From: Asanoa hainanensis
GTDB taxonomy: Bacteria; Actinomycetota; Actinomycetes; Mycobacteriales; Micromonosporaceae
Length of the DNA: 64,000 nucleotides
Direction of reading: 5' to 3'
Assembly (NCBI RefSeq): GCF_900188485.1
Contig: NZ_FZPH01000009.1
Coordinates: forward strand, 248,001 to 312,000
In this document: positions 46,425-52,237 of the stretch, piece after piece
Numbering within the stretch: the first letter of the stretch is position 1
Layout of the letters: the number at the start of each line of letters is the position of its first letter
The notes under the pieces: generated by a model
Told to the model about the DNA's origin: nothing
What the model saw: the letters and a program-made list of their open reading frames with translations, nothing else
Database searches by the model: none
Position numbers and translations under genes: made by a program

Positions 46425-47036
46425 TTAATCCAGGGCGGCGAGCAGCGCGTCCAGGCGCTCGGTGTCCAGCCACCCGTTGACCGCGACGGCACCGGTCCGG
46501 TCGACGTCGACCTGGACGCGGTCGACCGCGCCCGCCTGCCAGTCGACCAGGTCGGGGAACCGGTCGTCGAGCACCACGAACTCCTGGTTGGTCGAGCCGG
46601 CCCAGGGGCGCTGGTGGTCGATCCGGTCCTGCCGGAACGGGCCCGCCACCAGCAGGTCCGTGGCCGCGAGCAGGTCGGCGACCCCGGGTTTGCCGGCCGC
46701 CGCGGCCCGGCGCAGGGCCGCGTGGGTGTAGCCGGAGAAGGTCAGCACCGAGCGACCGCCGGCGCGCACCCGGCGGGCCACCGCGGCCAGCCCCTCGGCC
46801 TGGTCGAACGGCTCACCGCCGAGGAGGGTCAGGCCGCCGGACGGCTCGGCTAGGACCCGGGCCGCCAGTGCGGTCGACGACCAGGGGACGCCGCCCTCGG
46901 CCGCGAACAGATGTGGGTTGAAGCAGCCGGCGCAGCGGATCGAGCAACCCTGCACCCAGACGGCGGTACGCACGCCCGGGCCCTCGGCAGTCGTGGTGCC
47001 GAGGTAGCGGGCGACGGCGACCGCCGGTTCAGACAT
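46425..47036 (-). CDS. Radical-SAM 4Fe-4S activase-like protein (NrdG/PflA type)
   Basis: A 203-residue protein. The cluster motif CxxxCxxC is in VWVQGCSIRCAGCFNPH, and LTLLGGEPFDQAEGLAAV is the glycyl-radical-activase GGEP-type motif that contacts SAM. FSGYTHAALRRA and FVVLDDRFP follow. Known relatives activate anaerobic ribonucleotide reductase or pyruvate formate-lyase, but no glycyl radical enzyme is encoded here. It is the last gene of the five-gene operon with the Ycf46-like ATPase, and its start overlaps the previous gene by 8 bp, so it probably modifies or serves that system (inference). Confidence 0.87.
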   Translation of the reverse strand: MSEPAVAVARYLGTTTAEGPGVRTAVWVQGCSIRCAGCFNPHLFAAEGGVPWSSTALAARVLAEPSGGLTLLGGEPFDQAEGLAAVARRVRAGGRSVLTFSGYTHAALRRAAAAGKPGVADLLAATDLLVAGPFRQDRIDHQRPWAGSTNQEFVVLDDRFPDLVDWQAGAVDRVQVDVDRTGAVAVNGWLDTERLDALLAALD

Positions 47037-47796
47037 CGAGGATGCGGCCCGCGTGGCCGCCCGGGCCGGGTGGGTGCGGCTGCGGCGGAGGTGCCGTGGC
47101 GACGGGGATGGCACGGACCAGCGGCAGGATCCGGACGTATTCGTGCGGTTGCAGCCCGAGCGCCGCACTGAACGCGTAGACGTCCGCGAAGCCGCCGCGA
47201 CGTTCCCGCTCGGCGACCGCCCGCAGCGCTCGTGCGTGGTCGAAGTGGGGGAGCGTCACCAGTTGCGCCGCGGTGGCGGAGTTGACGTCGATCGGCTCGG
47301 CCGACGCGGGCGGTGCGGGCTGGGCGGGCGGCGGCGCCGGATACGAGGGCTGTGCCGGCGGATACGAGGGCTGTGCCGCCGGGTAGGTGGGCTGGGCCGG
47401 CGGGTACGGGGGATGGAACGCCGGATAGCCGGGCGGTGGCGCCAGCGGTGTGGCATGCCAGGGGACGTAGGTGGCCTTGAAGCGCAGCCACGTGGGGTTT
47501 ATCGCGAAGGCGTGCAGGATGACGGCGAGCCAGGTCACCAGCCACAGGCCGACCGCCCAGTTGCTCAGGGCGGTGTCCTGCTCCGACTCACCGATCACGA
47601 TGAACAACGCGGTCGAGACCACCAGGTAGGCGATGCCGGAGATCCACAGTGCACGGCGCTTCATCCGGATCCCGAGGTAGATCAGGGCGCTGGAGCCGAG
47701 GCAGCCGAAGCCGGCCACCGGCAGCACCAGCCAGAGGCTGTGCAGCACTCGCCACGACAGCTTGCGGGCCGGGCCAGGGTCAAAGGCGGTCGACAT
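47029..47796 (-). CDS. Membrane protein with Pro-rich linker and helix-hairpin-helix tail
   Basis: A 255-residue protein in three parts: four membrane helices (about residues 15-110), a Pro/Ala/Tyr/Gln-rich linker with repeated (Y/S)YPPAQP units (about 125-175), and a C-terminal domain IDVNSATAAQLVTLPHFDHARALRAV like the ComEA helix-hairpin-helix. Such domains bind DNA non-specifically or mediate protein contacts. The arrangement places the tail in the cytoplasm or outside depending on topology, which I cannot fix. It overlaps the DUF2997 gene by 17 bp and the activase gene by 8 bp, so it belongs to the Ycf46-like operon. Confidence 0.8.
   Translation of the reverse strand: MSTAFDPGPARKLSWRVLHSLWLVLPVAGFGCLGSSALIYLGIRMKRRALWISGIAYLVVSTALFIVIGESEQDTALSNWAVGLWLVTWLAVILHAFAINPTWLRFKATYVPWHATPLAPPPGYPAFHPPYPPAQPTYPAAQPSYPPAQPSYPAPPPAQPAPPASAEPIDVNSATAAQLVTLPHFDHARALRAVAERERRGGFADVYAFSAALGLQPHEYVRILPLVRAIPVATAPPPQPHPPGPGGHAGRILDV
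47336..47431. repeat. Short tandem repeats encoding a Pro/Tyr-rich linker
   Basis: Degenerate 24-27-bp units (GGATACGAGGGCTGTGCCGG and variants) repeat about four times on the minus-strand coding sequence, encoding PAQPSYPP-like units. They are intragenic and low-complexity, not CRISPR-like. Confidence 0.7.
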
Positions 47797-47998
47797 CGTG
47801 CACCGTCTCCGTGGTCTCGACCGTGGCGCGGGCACGGGTGTAGTCGGCGGTGTGCGCGCTCGACACGGTGGTCGCGTCGAGCAGGTCTTCGAGCACGGCG
47901 ATGTAGTCGAGGCACTCGGCGCCGTGGATGCCGTGCGTCTCGGCGGTGACCGTGCCGTCGGGGGCGACCACCACCGTGACCGCCTCGCGCGCGGTCAT
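47780..47998 (-). CDS. DUF2997-domain small protein
   Basis: A 72-residue protein: VTVVVAPDGTVTAETHGIHGAECLDYIAVLEDLL is the DUF2997 pattern, with a Cys in GAECLD. DUF2997 proteins are found with DUF1257/Ycf35-like proteins in cyanobacteria and other bacteria; no molecular function is established to my knowledge. It overlaps the DUF1257-like gene by four bases (ATGA), and its C-terminal part overlaps the next gene by 17 bp. Confidence 0.85.
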   Translation of the reverse strand: MTAREAVTVVVAPDGTVTAETHGIHGAECLDYIAVLEDLLDATTVSSAHTADYTRARATVETTETVHDVDRL

Positions 47999-48459
47999 GC
48001 CCGCTCCCGCTGCTCGACAGCGAAGACCAGCCGCACGGACGCGTCTTCCTCTAGCGTCTCGGACTCGAGGCGGAGCCCGGCCGCCGGCGCGCGGGTGCGC
48101 AGCCGGTCGAGCACGGCCGCCTGCACCTGCCTGCCGTACGCCTCGTCGAGCCGCCGGACGATCTCGACAGCGCGGGACTCGTCGACGTCACCGGCGAAGT
48201 GCGCCGCCCAGATGCCCTCGGTGTCACGGGTGAACCGGGCGGTGACGCCCTGCCACACCGCGTCGACCAGGTCGGTGCCGGTCGTGACGACGGCACCGGT
48301 CTCGCGCAGCGCCGCGGACAGCAGCGCGCTGTCGCGCATCCGGGTCGACACCGTGCAGACCAGGCCGCCGCCGGACCCACCCGGCTGGTCGGCGGCGCGG
48401 GCCGAGATGGCCGCCGCGGCGGCCAGTGCCGCCGGAATGAGGAGCAGGGAGACGCTCAT
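47995..48459 (-). CDS. Ycf35/DUF1257-like protein with N-terminal membrane anchor
   Basis: A 154-residue protein. Residues about 1-20 form a hydrophobic segment (MSVSLLLIPAALAAAAAIS), probably an anchor. The rest follows the DUF1257 pattern: CTVSTRMRDSALLSAALRET, then a variable centre, and RRLDEAYGRQVQAAVLDRLR with LRLESETLEEDASVRLVF at the end. Ycf35 proteins are conserved in algal plastids and cyanobacteria and have no assigned mechanism. The Cys is in LVCTVS. It lies 27 bp downstream of the AAA+ gene and overlaps the DUF2997 gene. Confidence 0.75.
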   Translation of the reverse strand: MSVSLLLIPAALAAAAAISARAADQPGGSGGGLVCTVSTRMRDSALLSAALRETGAVVTTGTDLVDAVWQGVTARFTRDTEGIWAAHFAGDVDESRAVEIVRRLDEAYGRQVQAAVLDRLRTRAPAAGLRLESETLEEDASVRLVFAVEQRERA

Positions 48460-48486
48460 CCCACCATCCAACCATCGACGAGGCAA

Positions 48487-50118
48487 TCAGAACTCCACCG
48501 GCCGGCCGCCGTGCGAACGATGCGGGCCGCCCGCGTCGGGTCGCGGTTGCGGCGTTTCGAGATCCCAGTCCTCGGCGGCGGTCGCGGCGACCGCGCGGGC
48601 GTCGGCCCAGGCCCGGACCGCGGCGATCCGCTCGGCCTGGGTGCGGCTCAGCGGCACCATGTTGACCAGAGCCCGCACGACGTCGTCCTGGCGCAACGGG
48701 CGTCGCTCGGCGAAGGCGTCGTAGACGGCGGCGACGAGCGCGTGCTCGATCTCGGCGCCGGAGTAGCCCTCGCTTAGCGAGGTGAGCTCGGCGAGCACGC
48801 CGCTGTCGACGGAGAGCGCCCCACCCACCCGCGGGTTGCGCAGCCAGCGGGCGAGGTGGACCTGCCAGATCGAGCCGCGCTCGGCCCGGGTCGGCAGGTC
48901 CACGAAGAACACCTCGTCGAACCGGCCCTTGCGGAGGAGCTCGGGCGGGAGGCTCTCGATCTCGTTGGCGGTGGCGATCACGAACACCGGCCGGTTCTTC
49001 TCCTGCAGCCAGGTCAGGAACGAGCCGAACACCCGCGACGAGGTGCCGGAGTCGCCGGCGCCGGTGGCGGCGAAGCCCTTCTCGATCTCGTCGATCCAGA
49101 GGACGCACGGCGACACCGCCTCGGCCGTGCGGATCGCACTGCGCATGTTCTGCTCGCTCGACCCGACGAGGCCGGAGAACACCCGCCCGATGTCGAGGCG
49201 GAGCAGCGGGATGCCCCACGCGGCCGCGACGGCCTTGGCGGTCAGCGACTTGCCGCAGCCGGGTACGCCGGTGATCAGCACGCCGCGCGGCGCCGGCAGG
49301 CCGTAGTCGGCCGCGTCCGCCAGCCACGCGCCCTCGCGGCGGCCCAACCAGCGCTTCAGGTTCTCGAGCCCGCCGACGTCGGACAGCACCGGCCCGGTCT
49401 CGACGAACTCGAGCAGCCCCGCCTTGCGTACCGTCTGCCGCTTCTCCTCCAGGATCACGGGCAGGTCGGCGATGCTGATGACGCCGTCGTTGACCATCGC
49501 GCGGGCGAACGCGTTCTCCGCCTCGTGCAGCGTCAGGCCGAGCGCGGCCTTGGCGAACCGCTCGCGTCCGCTGTCGTCGAGGTCGATCCGGAGCCGGGGC
49601 GAGCCGGCGTTGGCCCGGAGCATCCCGTCCAGCACGGCACGGATGTCGGTCTCGGACGGCAAGGGGAAGTCGACGACCGTGACGTCCTTTTCGAGCTCGA
49701 CCGGCACCCGGTGGACCGGCGAGACGAGCACGAGGCTGCGCGGAATGGCGCCGGACCGGAACGCGGTCGCCAGGTCGCGCAGGCGCCGGATCACCGCCGG
49801 GTCGCCGGGCTGGCCGGCGCCGCCGAGCACGGGATGCAGGTCGCGGAACACCGCGACGATCGGCTGGTGGATCCGCAACAACGCGTCGAGCGCGTCCGAC
49901 GGGTTCTTCGTGCGGCCCTGCTCCTCGCCGTCGTCGCGGCGCAGCCCATCGGTCAGCGACCAGGTCCACACCGCGCGCGGGGTGCGCACGAGACCGGCGT
50001 CACCGGCGACCGCGCGCACCTCGAACAGCACCCGCAGCTCCTCGTGCGACTCGACCGCGATGATCGGGAAGCGCGCCTTGAGCAGTTGGGCGAGGGTGGT
50101 GCGGAAGGACTCTGCCAC
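48487..50118 (-). CDS. Ycf46-like AAA+ ATPase
   Basis: A 543-residue ATPase. The N-terminal half (about 1-255) is a degenerate RecA/AAA-like domain ([48 protein letters not shown]) without Walker A. The C-terminal half is a full AAA+ module: [12 protein letters not shown], Walker [16 protein letters not shown] (about 290), Walker [12 protein letters not shown], sensor 1 VIATANEI, arginine-finger region [16 protein letters not shown], and sensor 2 [11 protein letters not shown]. This two-domain layout is that of Ycf46. GTG 50118 was selected because the Ycf46 fold begins there; there is no strong ribosome binding site. It is the first gene of the five-gene operon. Confidence 0.88.
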
Positions 50119-50161: not shown

Positions 50162-52237
50162 TTACGGTGTCGTCGCCGGGAAAAGGACGACCTGGTCGGT
50201 GCCGACCTGGCCGTCGGCGTCGGTGTACGTCGCCACGAAGACGCCGGAGAGGTTGTCACCGGATCCGTGACCGGGTGCCGAGGTGGTGATGCTGCCGGAG
50301 CAACCCGTCGCCGAGGTGATCGGGTGGCCGTGCTCGTCGTGGCCGAGGATGTAGTTCACGGTGACCCGCGAGCAGTCCGTCGGCTGGTTGTCGACCACGG
50401 TCACCTGGAAGGGCACCGTGTCACCGAACTCGAACGGCTGACCCTCCTGCGGTGCGACGATCGTGACCGTCGGTGGCCGGGGGCCGACGACGAACGGAAG
50501 CTCGGCCGACGCCGAACGACCGGTGCTGTCGGTGACCTTGAGCGTGACCCGGTAGTTCCCGTTCGCGGCGAACGTGTACGTCGGGTTCGCCGCCCGCGAG
50601 TCCACCGTGCCGTTGGCGTCGAAGTCCCACGCGTACCGCAGCGCGTCGCCGTCCGCGTCGGTGGTGCCGGCGCTGGAGAACTGGACGGTCAACGGTGCGT
50701 CGCCGGCCAGCGGTTGGGCGCTGATCACCGGGACCGGCGTGCGGTTGCCACGCACGAAGTCGAACCTGGACAGTTGCGCGTCCGGGTTCTCGGCGAAGAA
50801 GCCGTCGCCGTATTCGAGGACGTAGAGCGCGCCGTCGGGGCCGAACTCCATGTCCATCGGGTTGTCGACCACGAAGGAGCCCAGCACCGGCCGGATGTCG
50901 GCCACGTTGCCGTGCCGGTCGAGGCGGAACTCCTTGATGTAGTCACGCGTCCACTCGTAGAACAGCGGCACGCCGTCGTAGTAGGACGGCCACTTGGTCC
51001 GCGAGTCGTTGCGCTTGTCGTATTCATAAGCCGGGCCGCCCATCGGGCCGATGCCGCCCTCGCCGAGGCCCGGGAACTCCGCCGACGGCGCGTAGGAGTA
51101 GGCCACCTCGGCCTTCTCCACCGCGGGCAGCCGGGTCAGGCCGGTGTTGTGCGGCGACTCGTTGACGGGCCGCCGGCAGTTGAACGGCGCACCCGACGTG
51201 CCCGTGGCGAAGTCGTAGTCCACGTAGGGCAGTGCGTCGGTCGCGCAGTACGGCCAGCCGTAGTTGGCCGGCTTGTCGATCCGCATCCACCGGCCCTGGC
51301 CGGCCGGCCCACGCGCCGGGTCGGCCGCGCCGGCGTCCGGCGAGTAGTCGCCCACGTACACGTCGTCGGTCCGCTTGTCGACGGCGAACCGGAACGGGTT
51401 GCGCAGGCCCATCGCGTAGATCTCCGGGCGGGTCTTCGGCGTGCCCGGCTTGAACAGGTTGCCGGACGGGATGGTGTAGCCGCCGCCGTTCTTGACCCGG
51501 ATCCGCAGCACCTTGCCGCGCAGGTCGTTGGTGTTGGCCGACGTGCGCTGCGCGTCGAAGGCCGGGTTGCGGGTGGCCCGCTCGTCGATCGGCACGTAGC
51601 CGTCGGAGAAGAACGGGTTGCTGTCGTCACCGGTCGACAGGTAGAGGTTGCCCTCGCTGTCGAAGTCGATCTGCCCACCGACGTGGCAGCAGATGCCGCG
51701 GTCGGTGTTCACCTGGATGATCTTCTGCTCGCTGCGGAGGTTGAGCGTGTTGCCTTCCAGCTTGAACCGGGAAAGCTGGAGGTGGCCCTTGAACGGCGCG
51801 AAGTCGGCCGCGGTGCCCTCGAACGGCGCGTCGCCCTCGTTGACGTCCGGCGTCGCCGGGTCGTCGGTCGGGGTGTCCAGCACCGGCGAGTAGTAGAGGT
51901 AGACCCACTTGTTGCGGGCGAAGTCCGCGTCGATCGCGACGCCCTGCAGGCCTTCCTCGTCGTGTTCGTAGACGGGCACGTCGGCGGCGAGTATGTTGCG
52001 CCCCGAGCGTGGGTCGTGGATCCGCACCTCACCGGTGCGGGCGGTGTGCAGCACCCGGTTGTCGGGCAGCACGGCGAGGCTGACGGGCTCGCCGGGAAAG
52101 TCGTTGAGCGTGACCTTCTGGAAGTTGCTGTCGGCGGGTGGCCCGCCGGGTGGTGCGGCCGCGGCCGGTGACAGCGATATGCCGCCGCCGGCTACCGCGA
52201 GGAGCGGCGCGACGACCAGGGCAAGCTTCTTGCGCAA
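50162..52237 (-). CDS. Secreted glucose/sorbosone dehydrogenase-like protein with PKD domain
   Basis: A 691-residue exported protein. A basic signal peptide (RKKLALVVAPLLAVAGG...SPAAAA) is followed by a GSDH-type beta-propeller related to PQQ-dependent aldose dehydrogenases (about 45-490: DEEGLQGVAIDADFARNKWVY, CCHVGGQIDFDSEGNLYLSTGDD, LRNPFRFAVDK, GPDGALYVLEYGDG), a PKD domain (about 500-590: DGDALRYAWDFDANGTVDS), and a C-terminal beta domain with a Cys pair. The start is a TTG at 52235-52237: GGAGG lies 6 bp upstream, and the signal peptide begins there. The electron acceptor and substrate are not predictable. Confidence 0.88.
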   Translation of the reverse strand: MRKKLALVVAPLLAVAGGGISLSPAAAAPPGGPPADSNFQKVTLNDFPGEPVSLAVLPDNRVLHTARTGEVRIHDPRSGRNILAADVPVYEHDEEGLQGVAIDADFARNKWVYLYYSPVLDTPTDDPATPDVNEGDAPFEGTAADFAPFKGHLQLSRFKLEGNTLNLRSEQKIIQVNTDRGICCHVGGQIDFDSEGNLYLSTGDDSNPFFSDGYVPIDERATRNPAFDAQRTSANTNDLRGKVLRIRVKNGGGYTIPSGNLFKPGTPKTRPEIYAMGLRNPFRFAVDKRTDDVYVGDYSPDAGAADPARGPAGQGRWMRIDKPANYGWPYCATDALPYVDYDFATGTSGAPFNCRRPVNESPHNTGLTRLPAVEKAEVAYSYAPSAEFPGLGEGGIGPMGGPAYEYDKRNDSRTKWPSYYDGVPLFYEWTRDYIKEFRLDRHGNVADIRPVLGSFVVDNPMDMEFGPDGALYVLEYGDGFFAENPDAQLSRFDFVRGNRTPVPVISAQPLAGDAPLTVQFSSAGTTDADGDALRYAWDFDANGTVDSRAANPTYTFAANGNYRVTLKVTDSTGRSASAELPFVVGPRPPTVTIVAPQEGQPFEFGDTVPFQVTVVDNQPTDCSRVTVNYILGHDEHGHPITSATGCSGSITTSAPGHGSGDNLSGVFVATYTDADGQVGTDQVVLFPATTP

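Follow-up and report, generated by a model that had tools for sequence, protein, structure and literature searches.

Ycf46, Ycf35 and DUF2997 proteins are retained in plastids and cyanobacteria, and to our knowledge no mechanism has been agreed for them. In Synechocystis, the genes for DUF2997, ycf35 and fed7 form cluster g (PMC4284462, excerpt). An excerpt of a second paper, which cites others, places Ycf46 (slr0374) in a stress-responsive operon of undefined role, its loss lowering the activity of a carbonic anhydrase (PMC7496141). The present analysis concerns a five-gene operon on the minus strand (46425..50118) of a 64,000-nucleotide stretch of DNA from Asanoa hainanensis (NCBI RefSeq assembly GCF_900188485.1, contig NZ_FZPH01000009.1, positions 248,001 to 312,000), referred to below as the window. 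The operon encodes an AAA+ ATPase, a DUF1257 (Ycf35)-like protein, a DUF2997 protein, a helix-hairpin-helix (HhH) membrane protein and an NrdG-like radical S-adenosylmethionine (SAM) enzyme. These five genes are one uncharacterised, mobile module around a putative ATP-driven remodeller and a radical enzyme. New here are a C-terminal motif common to the ATPase and the HhH protein, and the pairing of the motif-bearing ATPase with another partner in phages. Searches of openly licensed PubMed Central (PMC) papers turned up no publication that describes this gene set or the motif.

The cyanobacterial systems resemble the module in part. Relatives of the ATPase adjoin DUF1257 in eight cyanobacterial loci, DUF2997 is common to both, and the Synechocystis cluster also has an iron-sulfur protein attached, the ferredoxin Fed7. 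Unlike the module, the eight cyanobacterial loci lack HhH and NrdG-like genes in the neighbourhood of the ATPase gene, and the tail of their ATPase, YQRMEF-like, differs from the module tail. The window ATPase has the build of a Ycf46 protein, a two-domain AAA+ ATPase that has lost its N-terminal ATPase site. The family is taken here to be Ycf46, a name that we assume; no model so named turned up in the searches made.

Relatives of the ATPase were collected by scanning named genomes with the ATPase alignment (best 80 of 548 relatives used) and by scanning viral sequences (best 80 of 312 relatives used), so the frequencies below hold for the nearest relatives only. The named-genome relatives, together with loci from further genomes, plasmids and phages, gave 93 AAA loci. 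A gene was scored as linked when it lay within 6.5 kb of the ATPase gene on the same strand. Radical-SAM and HhH genes were both present in 45 loci, the radical-SAM gene alone in 3, the HhH gene alone in 2 (L018 and, at a contig edge, L032) and neither in 43; the complete five-gene set was present in 42/93. The linkage of the activase-like and HhH genes to the ATPase gene, claimed in an earlier sequence-only reading of this DNA, was thus found again in relatives. Five-gene carriers of named phyla were Actinomycetota, Bacillota, Candidatus Melainabacteria, Planctomycetota, Fusobacteriota and Bacteroidota. Loci with all five genes showed at least seven basic gene orders among lineages at constant gene content; what is conserved is thus which genes are present and not how they are arranged. 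The repeated co-occurrence of this gene set in different phyla exceeds chance. Clustering of 1152 genes lying at most 6 kb from the ATPase gene placed the five families in 86, 57, 46, 43 and 39 of 86 loci, and the next family in 11.

The AAA and HhH proteins share the C-terminal motif R-x-[ILV]-[DE]-[FLVI]-COOH. The window ATPase ends in GGRPVEF before its stop codon (48490..48510, minus strand) and the window HhH protein in AGRILDV (47032..47052, minus strand); the same motif was seen in relatives of both. Strict counts were made with the pattern R-x-[ILVMF]-[DE]-[FLVIYWM] at the very end of the protein. In loci with both radical-SAM and HhH genes, the terminal motif was found in 57/60 HhH open reading frames (ORFs) and 39/45 ATPases. 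Most of these ATPases end in (R)GGR-x-[ILV]-[DE]-[FVY], preceded by a variable linker, and the HhH proteins mostly in [GE]R-x-[ILV]-D-[LFIVW]. The three HhH exceptions were one residue short (L035), carried the motif plus one residue (L042) or came from a doubtful ORF (L064). Because the tails had been part of the first HhH profile, a second one was built from sequences shortened by their final 20 residues and was run on ORFs cut likewise; motif-bearing proteins were again 57/60. The five loci outside the main counts (L159, L160, L167, L168 and L171) had the motif in 6/6 HhH proteins and 5/5 ATPases, two of the ATPase tails being identical. None of the listed DUF1257, DUF2997 or radical-SAM proteins of full systems carried it.

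Among other called genes, the terminal motif (where the third position could be M but could not be F) occurred in 3/1338. These were GyrB in L029, an HhH protein in L060 that the profile had missed (HHH_3, E 9e-10) and a membrane Mrr-nuclease protein beside the L038 module, two of the three being probable members of the system. The last of these (L038:7809-8549, from a Melainabacteria metagenome-assembled genome) combines hydrophobic sequence in its N-terminal part with an Mrr_cat nuclease domain and the tail GRRLDV, and adjoins a full module; it hints that the motif can be placed on other effectors. A second tagged hydrophobic protein (L029:9118-9660, tail GGRVIDL, no Pfam match) is encoded upstream of the ATPase gene. 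In L049 (4296-9335), seven consecutive HhH ORFs precede the radical-SAM gene, every one with the C-terminal motif.

In phages the motif is carried by a different partner. One protein family was present in 35/82 viral AAA loci, directly downstream of the ATPase gene in 26 of the 35. The two members that were scanned, in L109 (6691-7494) and L280 (7558-8391), match PHROG 11021. Most proteins of this type carry one to three copies of the motif, usually within the C-terminal region and in some cases right at the C-terminus. The 29 distinct partner sequences contained 33 copies where 5.6 were expected (200 shuffles, highest value 12), whereas 1520 control genes contained 117 against 103; 22 of the 29, by inspection, had the motif in the last 60 residues. 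The family had been spotted through the terminal tag in four loci, and the members first noticed by that tag were therefore left out of a second count. This gave 27 copies in 26 sequences against 4.8 in shuffles (maximum 13 of 500), and 19/26 had a copy among their final 60 residues, where 1.1 was expected (maximum 5). A motif at most two residues from the end was found in the ATPases of 28/35 viral loci with the partner, compared with 20/1552 other genes.

The AAA-ATPase of Corndog-type mycobacteriophages (PHROG 8638) belongs to the same family as the module ATPase (P0001, E 2e-136), and has the same tail motif and a motif-bearing PHROG 11021 neighbour. Phage SchoolBus, the genome read, encodes the ATPase gp95 (...VRVLDL) and the partner gp94, with GRAIDF inside its tail. 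The DUF1257, DUF2997, radical-SAM and HhH profiles gave no match in the whole SchoolBus genome; tried on phage RHph_I4 as a positive control, the same profiles recovered its DUF1257 and DUF2997 annotations. The phage pair thus differs from the module in its other genes, and no relation of its partner to HhH proteins was found by the searches made. The cellular genome G011 has an ATPase and an HhH protein that both bear the motif. DUF1257 and DUF2997 gave no match in G011, where positive controls worked, and its only radical-SAM match was an ordinary pyruvate formate-lyase (PFL) activase beside a pyruvate-formate-lyase-like gene.

The operon is read here as a membrane ATP-driven remodelling machine in which the motif would be a docking peptide read by the ATPase itself, with a probability of about 0.47. 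We infer the docking role of the motif, the ATPase as reader, the membrane location and the remodelling. The Cdc48-like ATPase would be the hub of a protein-remodelling machine at the membrane, and the motif R-x-[ILV]-[DE]-[hydrophobic], on a flexible tail, would mark this ATPase and its dedicated HhH partner. The ATPase may carry a ligand of its own in this way, its copy acting from one ring subunit to another or inhibiting the ATPase itself, and the copy on the HhH tail would bring the membrane protein to the AAA ring as an anchor or client. DUF1257 and DUF2997 would be accessory adaptors, and the radical-SAM enzyme would modify a component of the machine or a client. The ATPase is the simplest candidate reader because it is what the motif-bearing pairs of SchoolBus and G011 share. 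A membrane association, already suggested in the sequence-only reading, fits the hydrophobic segments of the HhH proteins and of the DUF1257 N-terminus.

The C-terminal peptide of the adaptor SspB docks on ClpX, and docking of a partner's tail peptide on an AAA+ ring is the likeness that may hold for the module. ClpX is of a different AAA+ family, and the module ATPase itself bears the motif as well. The SspB C-terminal peptide RGGRPALRVVK was used in a ClpX study (PMC3983244, excerpt). A wider statement is possible, though distinctly more doubtful than the docking reading: the Ycf46 AAA+ family may have a code of its own, the five residues R-x-[ILV]-[DE]-[hydrophobic], set on the ATPase tail and copied by each dedicated partner. 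The partners would be membrane proteins in bacteria, within a mobile five-gene module whose radical-SAM enzyme modifies the machinery, in aerobes too, and an unrelated protein in phages. If true, this would give the Ycf46, Ycf35 and DUF2997 families a common mechanism. A motif that links an ATPase to its partner in both bacteria and phages opens experiments with two proteins and a peptide, and the module offers a member of the glycyl-radical-activase group of radical-SAM enzymes from genomes in which no glycyl-radical enzyme was detected.

Several observations weigh against the docking reading. The ATPase was reached as reader by elimination, which is not proof, and the reader could instead be a host factor encoded elsewhere than in these loci. 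Six ATPases of loci with radical-SAM and HhH genes lack the exact terminal motif: it is followed by extra residues in L058 and L064, broken in L026 and altered in L062, the protein of L047 ends inside it, and L027 has none. Three of the 45 loci are incomplete, with one or two of the remaining genes missing (L039, L058 and, at a contig edge, L047). In viral loci with DUF1257 or DUF2997 but no partner, the ATPase tail motif was found in 4/23, and in those with neither DUF nor a known partner in 19/24, which means that the tail can be kept where no known partner is present. The phage partner sequences are related and are not independent events, and the shuffles ignore this kinship. The ATPase/HhH pair of G011 could be a decaying remnant. 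On the tree, independent pairs were used to ask whether the tail depends on DUF1257 or on HhH; these tests, underpowered as they were, gave no significant result (five long-branch rows left out).

Four other explanations were weighed. The shared motif may be a site modified by the radical-SAM enzyme, the modified tail controlling assembly of the machine; this is unlikely, though the least so of the four. Both tail-bearing proteins are operon partners of this enzyme, whose profile matched only PFL-activating enzymes in the Protein Data Bank (PDB), which places it in a group acting on glycine-containing peptides. The tails of the 39 tagged ATPases of loci with radical-SAM and HhH genes suit such an enzyme, having G at position -6 in all 39, a second G at -7 in 35 of them and an R at -8 in 30 (mostly RGGR), but the HhH tails have G at -6 in just 30/57 and E in 18. 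The glycyl-radical consensus RVxGY is missing from the tails, and in phages and G011 the ATPase and its partner carry the motif without such a radical-SAM enzyme. A role as a degradation or delivery signal for a general host protease or chaperone, by which the HhH proteins would be turned over, has a small chance. The C-terminal position and hydrophobic end do resemble degrons; yet the ATPase itself bears the motif, unrelated neighbours rarely do, and the mostly internal copies of the phage partners are ill-suited to a C-terminal degron.

An equally small chance is left to DUF1257 (or DUF2997) as the protein that reads the motif, in the way that cofactors read the tail of p97. The 43 loci lacking both radical-SAM and HhH genes (cellular, with three from phages) spoke for it, the tail core being present in 14/19 with DUF1257 and 3/24 without (p 9e-5; DUF1257 of L021 and L111 assigned by hand). 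On the tree this association rests on 3 independent supported pairs. The 82 viral loci, used as an out-of-sample test, gave the opposite direction (7/20 with DUF1257 against 40/62 without, p 0.036), and all 118 loci without radical-SAM and HhH genes gave 17/32 against 43/86. DUF1257 was rejected as tail reader on this reversal, and the idea was dropped because it failed in the viral loci. The version given in the sequence-only reading, in which the radical-SAM protein is the activase of an unlinked glycyl-radical enzyme and the operon an activation device, is very improbable. The NrdG model (TIGR02491) does match 44/44 aligned radical-SAM sequences, but the window protein stays below its equivalog cut-off (85.4 vs 126.1 bits) and many carriers of the module are aerobic actinomycetes. 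The glycyl-radical domain PF01228 was found in 0/6 genomes of the genus (own and five congeners), where the search gave 2/7 in other genomes and positive controls in E. coli, Bacteroides and Lactococcus. A glycyl-radical partner was accordingly rejected for the genus; the same search bears out the sequence-only reading in that the activase lacks its radical enzyme, and a distant NrdD-type partner did not appear in the genus. The further claim of that reading, that the enzyme activates some other protein, was not supported by anything found.

The operon layout agreed with the earlier description, all five genes being at the claimed place and strand. From the ATPase gene to the radical-SAM gene, the coordinates bear out the claimed spacing of 27 bp, followed by overlaps of 4, 17 and 8 bp. 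The ATPase (48487..50118, 543 aa, GTG start) has a C-terminal half like the D2 domain of Cdc48/p97 by Pfam and PDB profile search. Its Pfam AAA match is limited to residues 280-407. The protein has one Walker A motif (GVPGCGKS, residues 284-291, 49246..49269) and no second G-x-GK[ST], and its N-terminal half is therefore regarded as degenerate; the two-domain description with an intact C-terminal Walker A was correct. The best PDB match of AAA profile A1 was a VCP-like ATPase (E 1e-76). This similarity to Cdc48/p97/NVL-type unfoldases lies in the C-terminal ATPase half, and the module ATPase differs from them in having one intact ATPase site only. Cut-offs were not reached for the CDC48 model (101 bits vs 802) or for the anti-phage ATPase IetA/IteA (73.1 vs 510 bits). 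A comparison of alignment columns between motif-bearing and other ATPases gave no clear candidate for a binding site. A more distant relative in L020 (genome G023) has none of the four partners nearby and large unidentified genes around it.

The second gene (47995..48459) encodes a divergent DUF1257 (Ycf35-like) protein of 154 aa with an N-terminal hydrophobic segment MSVSLLLIPAALA. It matched no Pfam family at E<=1, and so had no direct PF06868 match. An iterated profile of its relatives joins cyanobacterial neighbours, and 19/63 aligned members match PF06868, on which basis it is called DUF1257-like. Of the earlier description as a DUF1257/Ycf35-like protein with an N-terminal anchor, the hydrophobic start stood, a direct Pfam assignment did not, and the family link is indirect, through relatives. 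By pattern, a hydrophobic start of the MS-x-S-L type was found in 30/44 DUF1257 proteins beside a radical-SAM gene and 1/19 elsewhere, the single case being in the contig-edge locus L032. The third gene (47780..47998) encodes a 72 aa protein identified as DUF2997, as proposed earlier (PF11211, 58.3 bits vs cut-off 24.1, E 7.1e-16). The G and C of its G-x-x-C motif (G26, C29) are invariant in 52 aligned sequences. DUF2997 is rare near the window organism, being found in 6/61 relatives and in 3/296 Actinomycetota (2 above the cut-off), own genome counted in both. PDB searches with the DUF1257 and DUF2997 profiles gave no credible match.

The HhH protein (47029..47796, 255 aa) consists of a hydrophobic N-terminal part, a Pro-rich linker and a degenerate HhH domain (HHH_3, 32.5 bits vs cut-off 27). 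Part of the linker is encoded by 21-bp direct repeats at window positions 47331-47402. A Kyte-Doolittle scan gave three hydrophobic segments, against the four membrane helices proposed earlier. Among the 60 HhH ORFs, taken stop-to-stop with loose start sites, 49 had one to three strongly hydrophobic segments, 8 had none and 3 had at least four. DNA-binding HhH domains are defined by the glycines of the G-h-G hairpin. The first hairpin of the window protein reads PHFD, without the usual glycines, and the second hairpin glycine is missing in 26/30 pattern-readable hairpins of the 60 ORFs. The HhH is therefore read as a possible protein-contact domain. The comparison with ComEA-type DNA-binding proteins made in the earlier reading stood for the HHH_3 domain and was weakened for DNA binding, where the G-h-G glycines are absent; DNA binding by the window protein is doubtful.

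The radical-SAM enzyme (46425..47036, 203 aa) has a C-terminal stretch (VNGW...) that extends past the NrdG model. It matches Fer4_12 (E 3.8e-29). The three cysteines of CxxxCxxC (C31/C35/C38, 46923..46946) and the SAM-binding GGEP are invariant in the 44 aligned sequences, which supports its assignment to the radical-SAM enzymes. It shares these two motifs and matches to the NrdG and PFLA models with NrdG and PFL-activating enzymes, and differs from them in the extra C-terminal stretch, in the sub-cut-off NrdG score and in that no radical enzyme for it was found in the genus. When this stretch was compared with DUF2997, hhalign gave probabilities of 92% and 90% over a hairpin of 16-18 columns only, and 20% in global mode, which does not establish a relation between the two. 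Searched with the genus radical-SAM profile, the own genome yields one match, the enzyme of the operon. In the own phylum, 40/396 genomes, own included, match the radical-SAM profile, mostly in the NrdG core only, and none of seven loci fetched from this search had an AAA match. A different, PFL-activase-like radical-SAM protein is encoded upstream of the ATPase gene, beside the AAA-DUF1257-DUF2997 set of L089 and L097 (Planctomycetota), and so an iron-sulfur enzyme seems to have been recruited more than once; L081 has the same arrangement, judged by gene length only. On plasmid pTRESU01 of Treponema succinifaciens (L108), radical-SAM and Ycf46-like ATPase genes lie directly ahead of a phage baseplate V gene. 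A weak, sub-cut-off baseplate-hub match lies upstream, a possible injection-apparatus context.

PADLOC, run on 100 neighbour genes (140 sampled of 411 eligible), gave mad3 (6), mad8 (3), AriA (2) and singles such as AbiH and MzaA; these counts lack a control baseline (140 of a set of 424 unscanned) and say nothing either way on defence. In some gut bacteria (L041, L046 and L051) the module, with no obvious defence island, adjoins genes that by eye resemble ATP-synthase subunits. Five plasmid records, all actinobacterial, match P0005 at E<=1e-25; each carries the complete gene set, in one and the same order, and three of them were typed conjugative. The environmental viral contig L171 also holds all five genes. 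In the genus, three congeners have the same five genes in the same order. Two further congeners (2/6 genus members) have no AAA, radical-SAM, DUF2997 or DUF1257 match genome-wide. In these the flanking genes face each other with about 135-150 bp between them, and the agreement of the empty-site sequence with the window extends to where the radical-SAM gene ends. One of the flanking genes, at window positions 50162-52237, has 10-11 relatives per genome in G003 and G004 (E<=1e-60), and the G003 copy that adjoins the empty site is divided between two frames.

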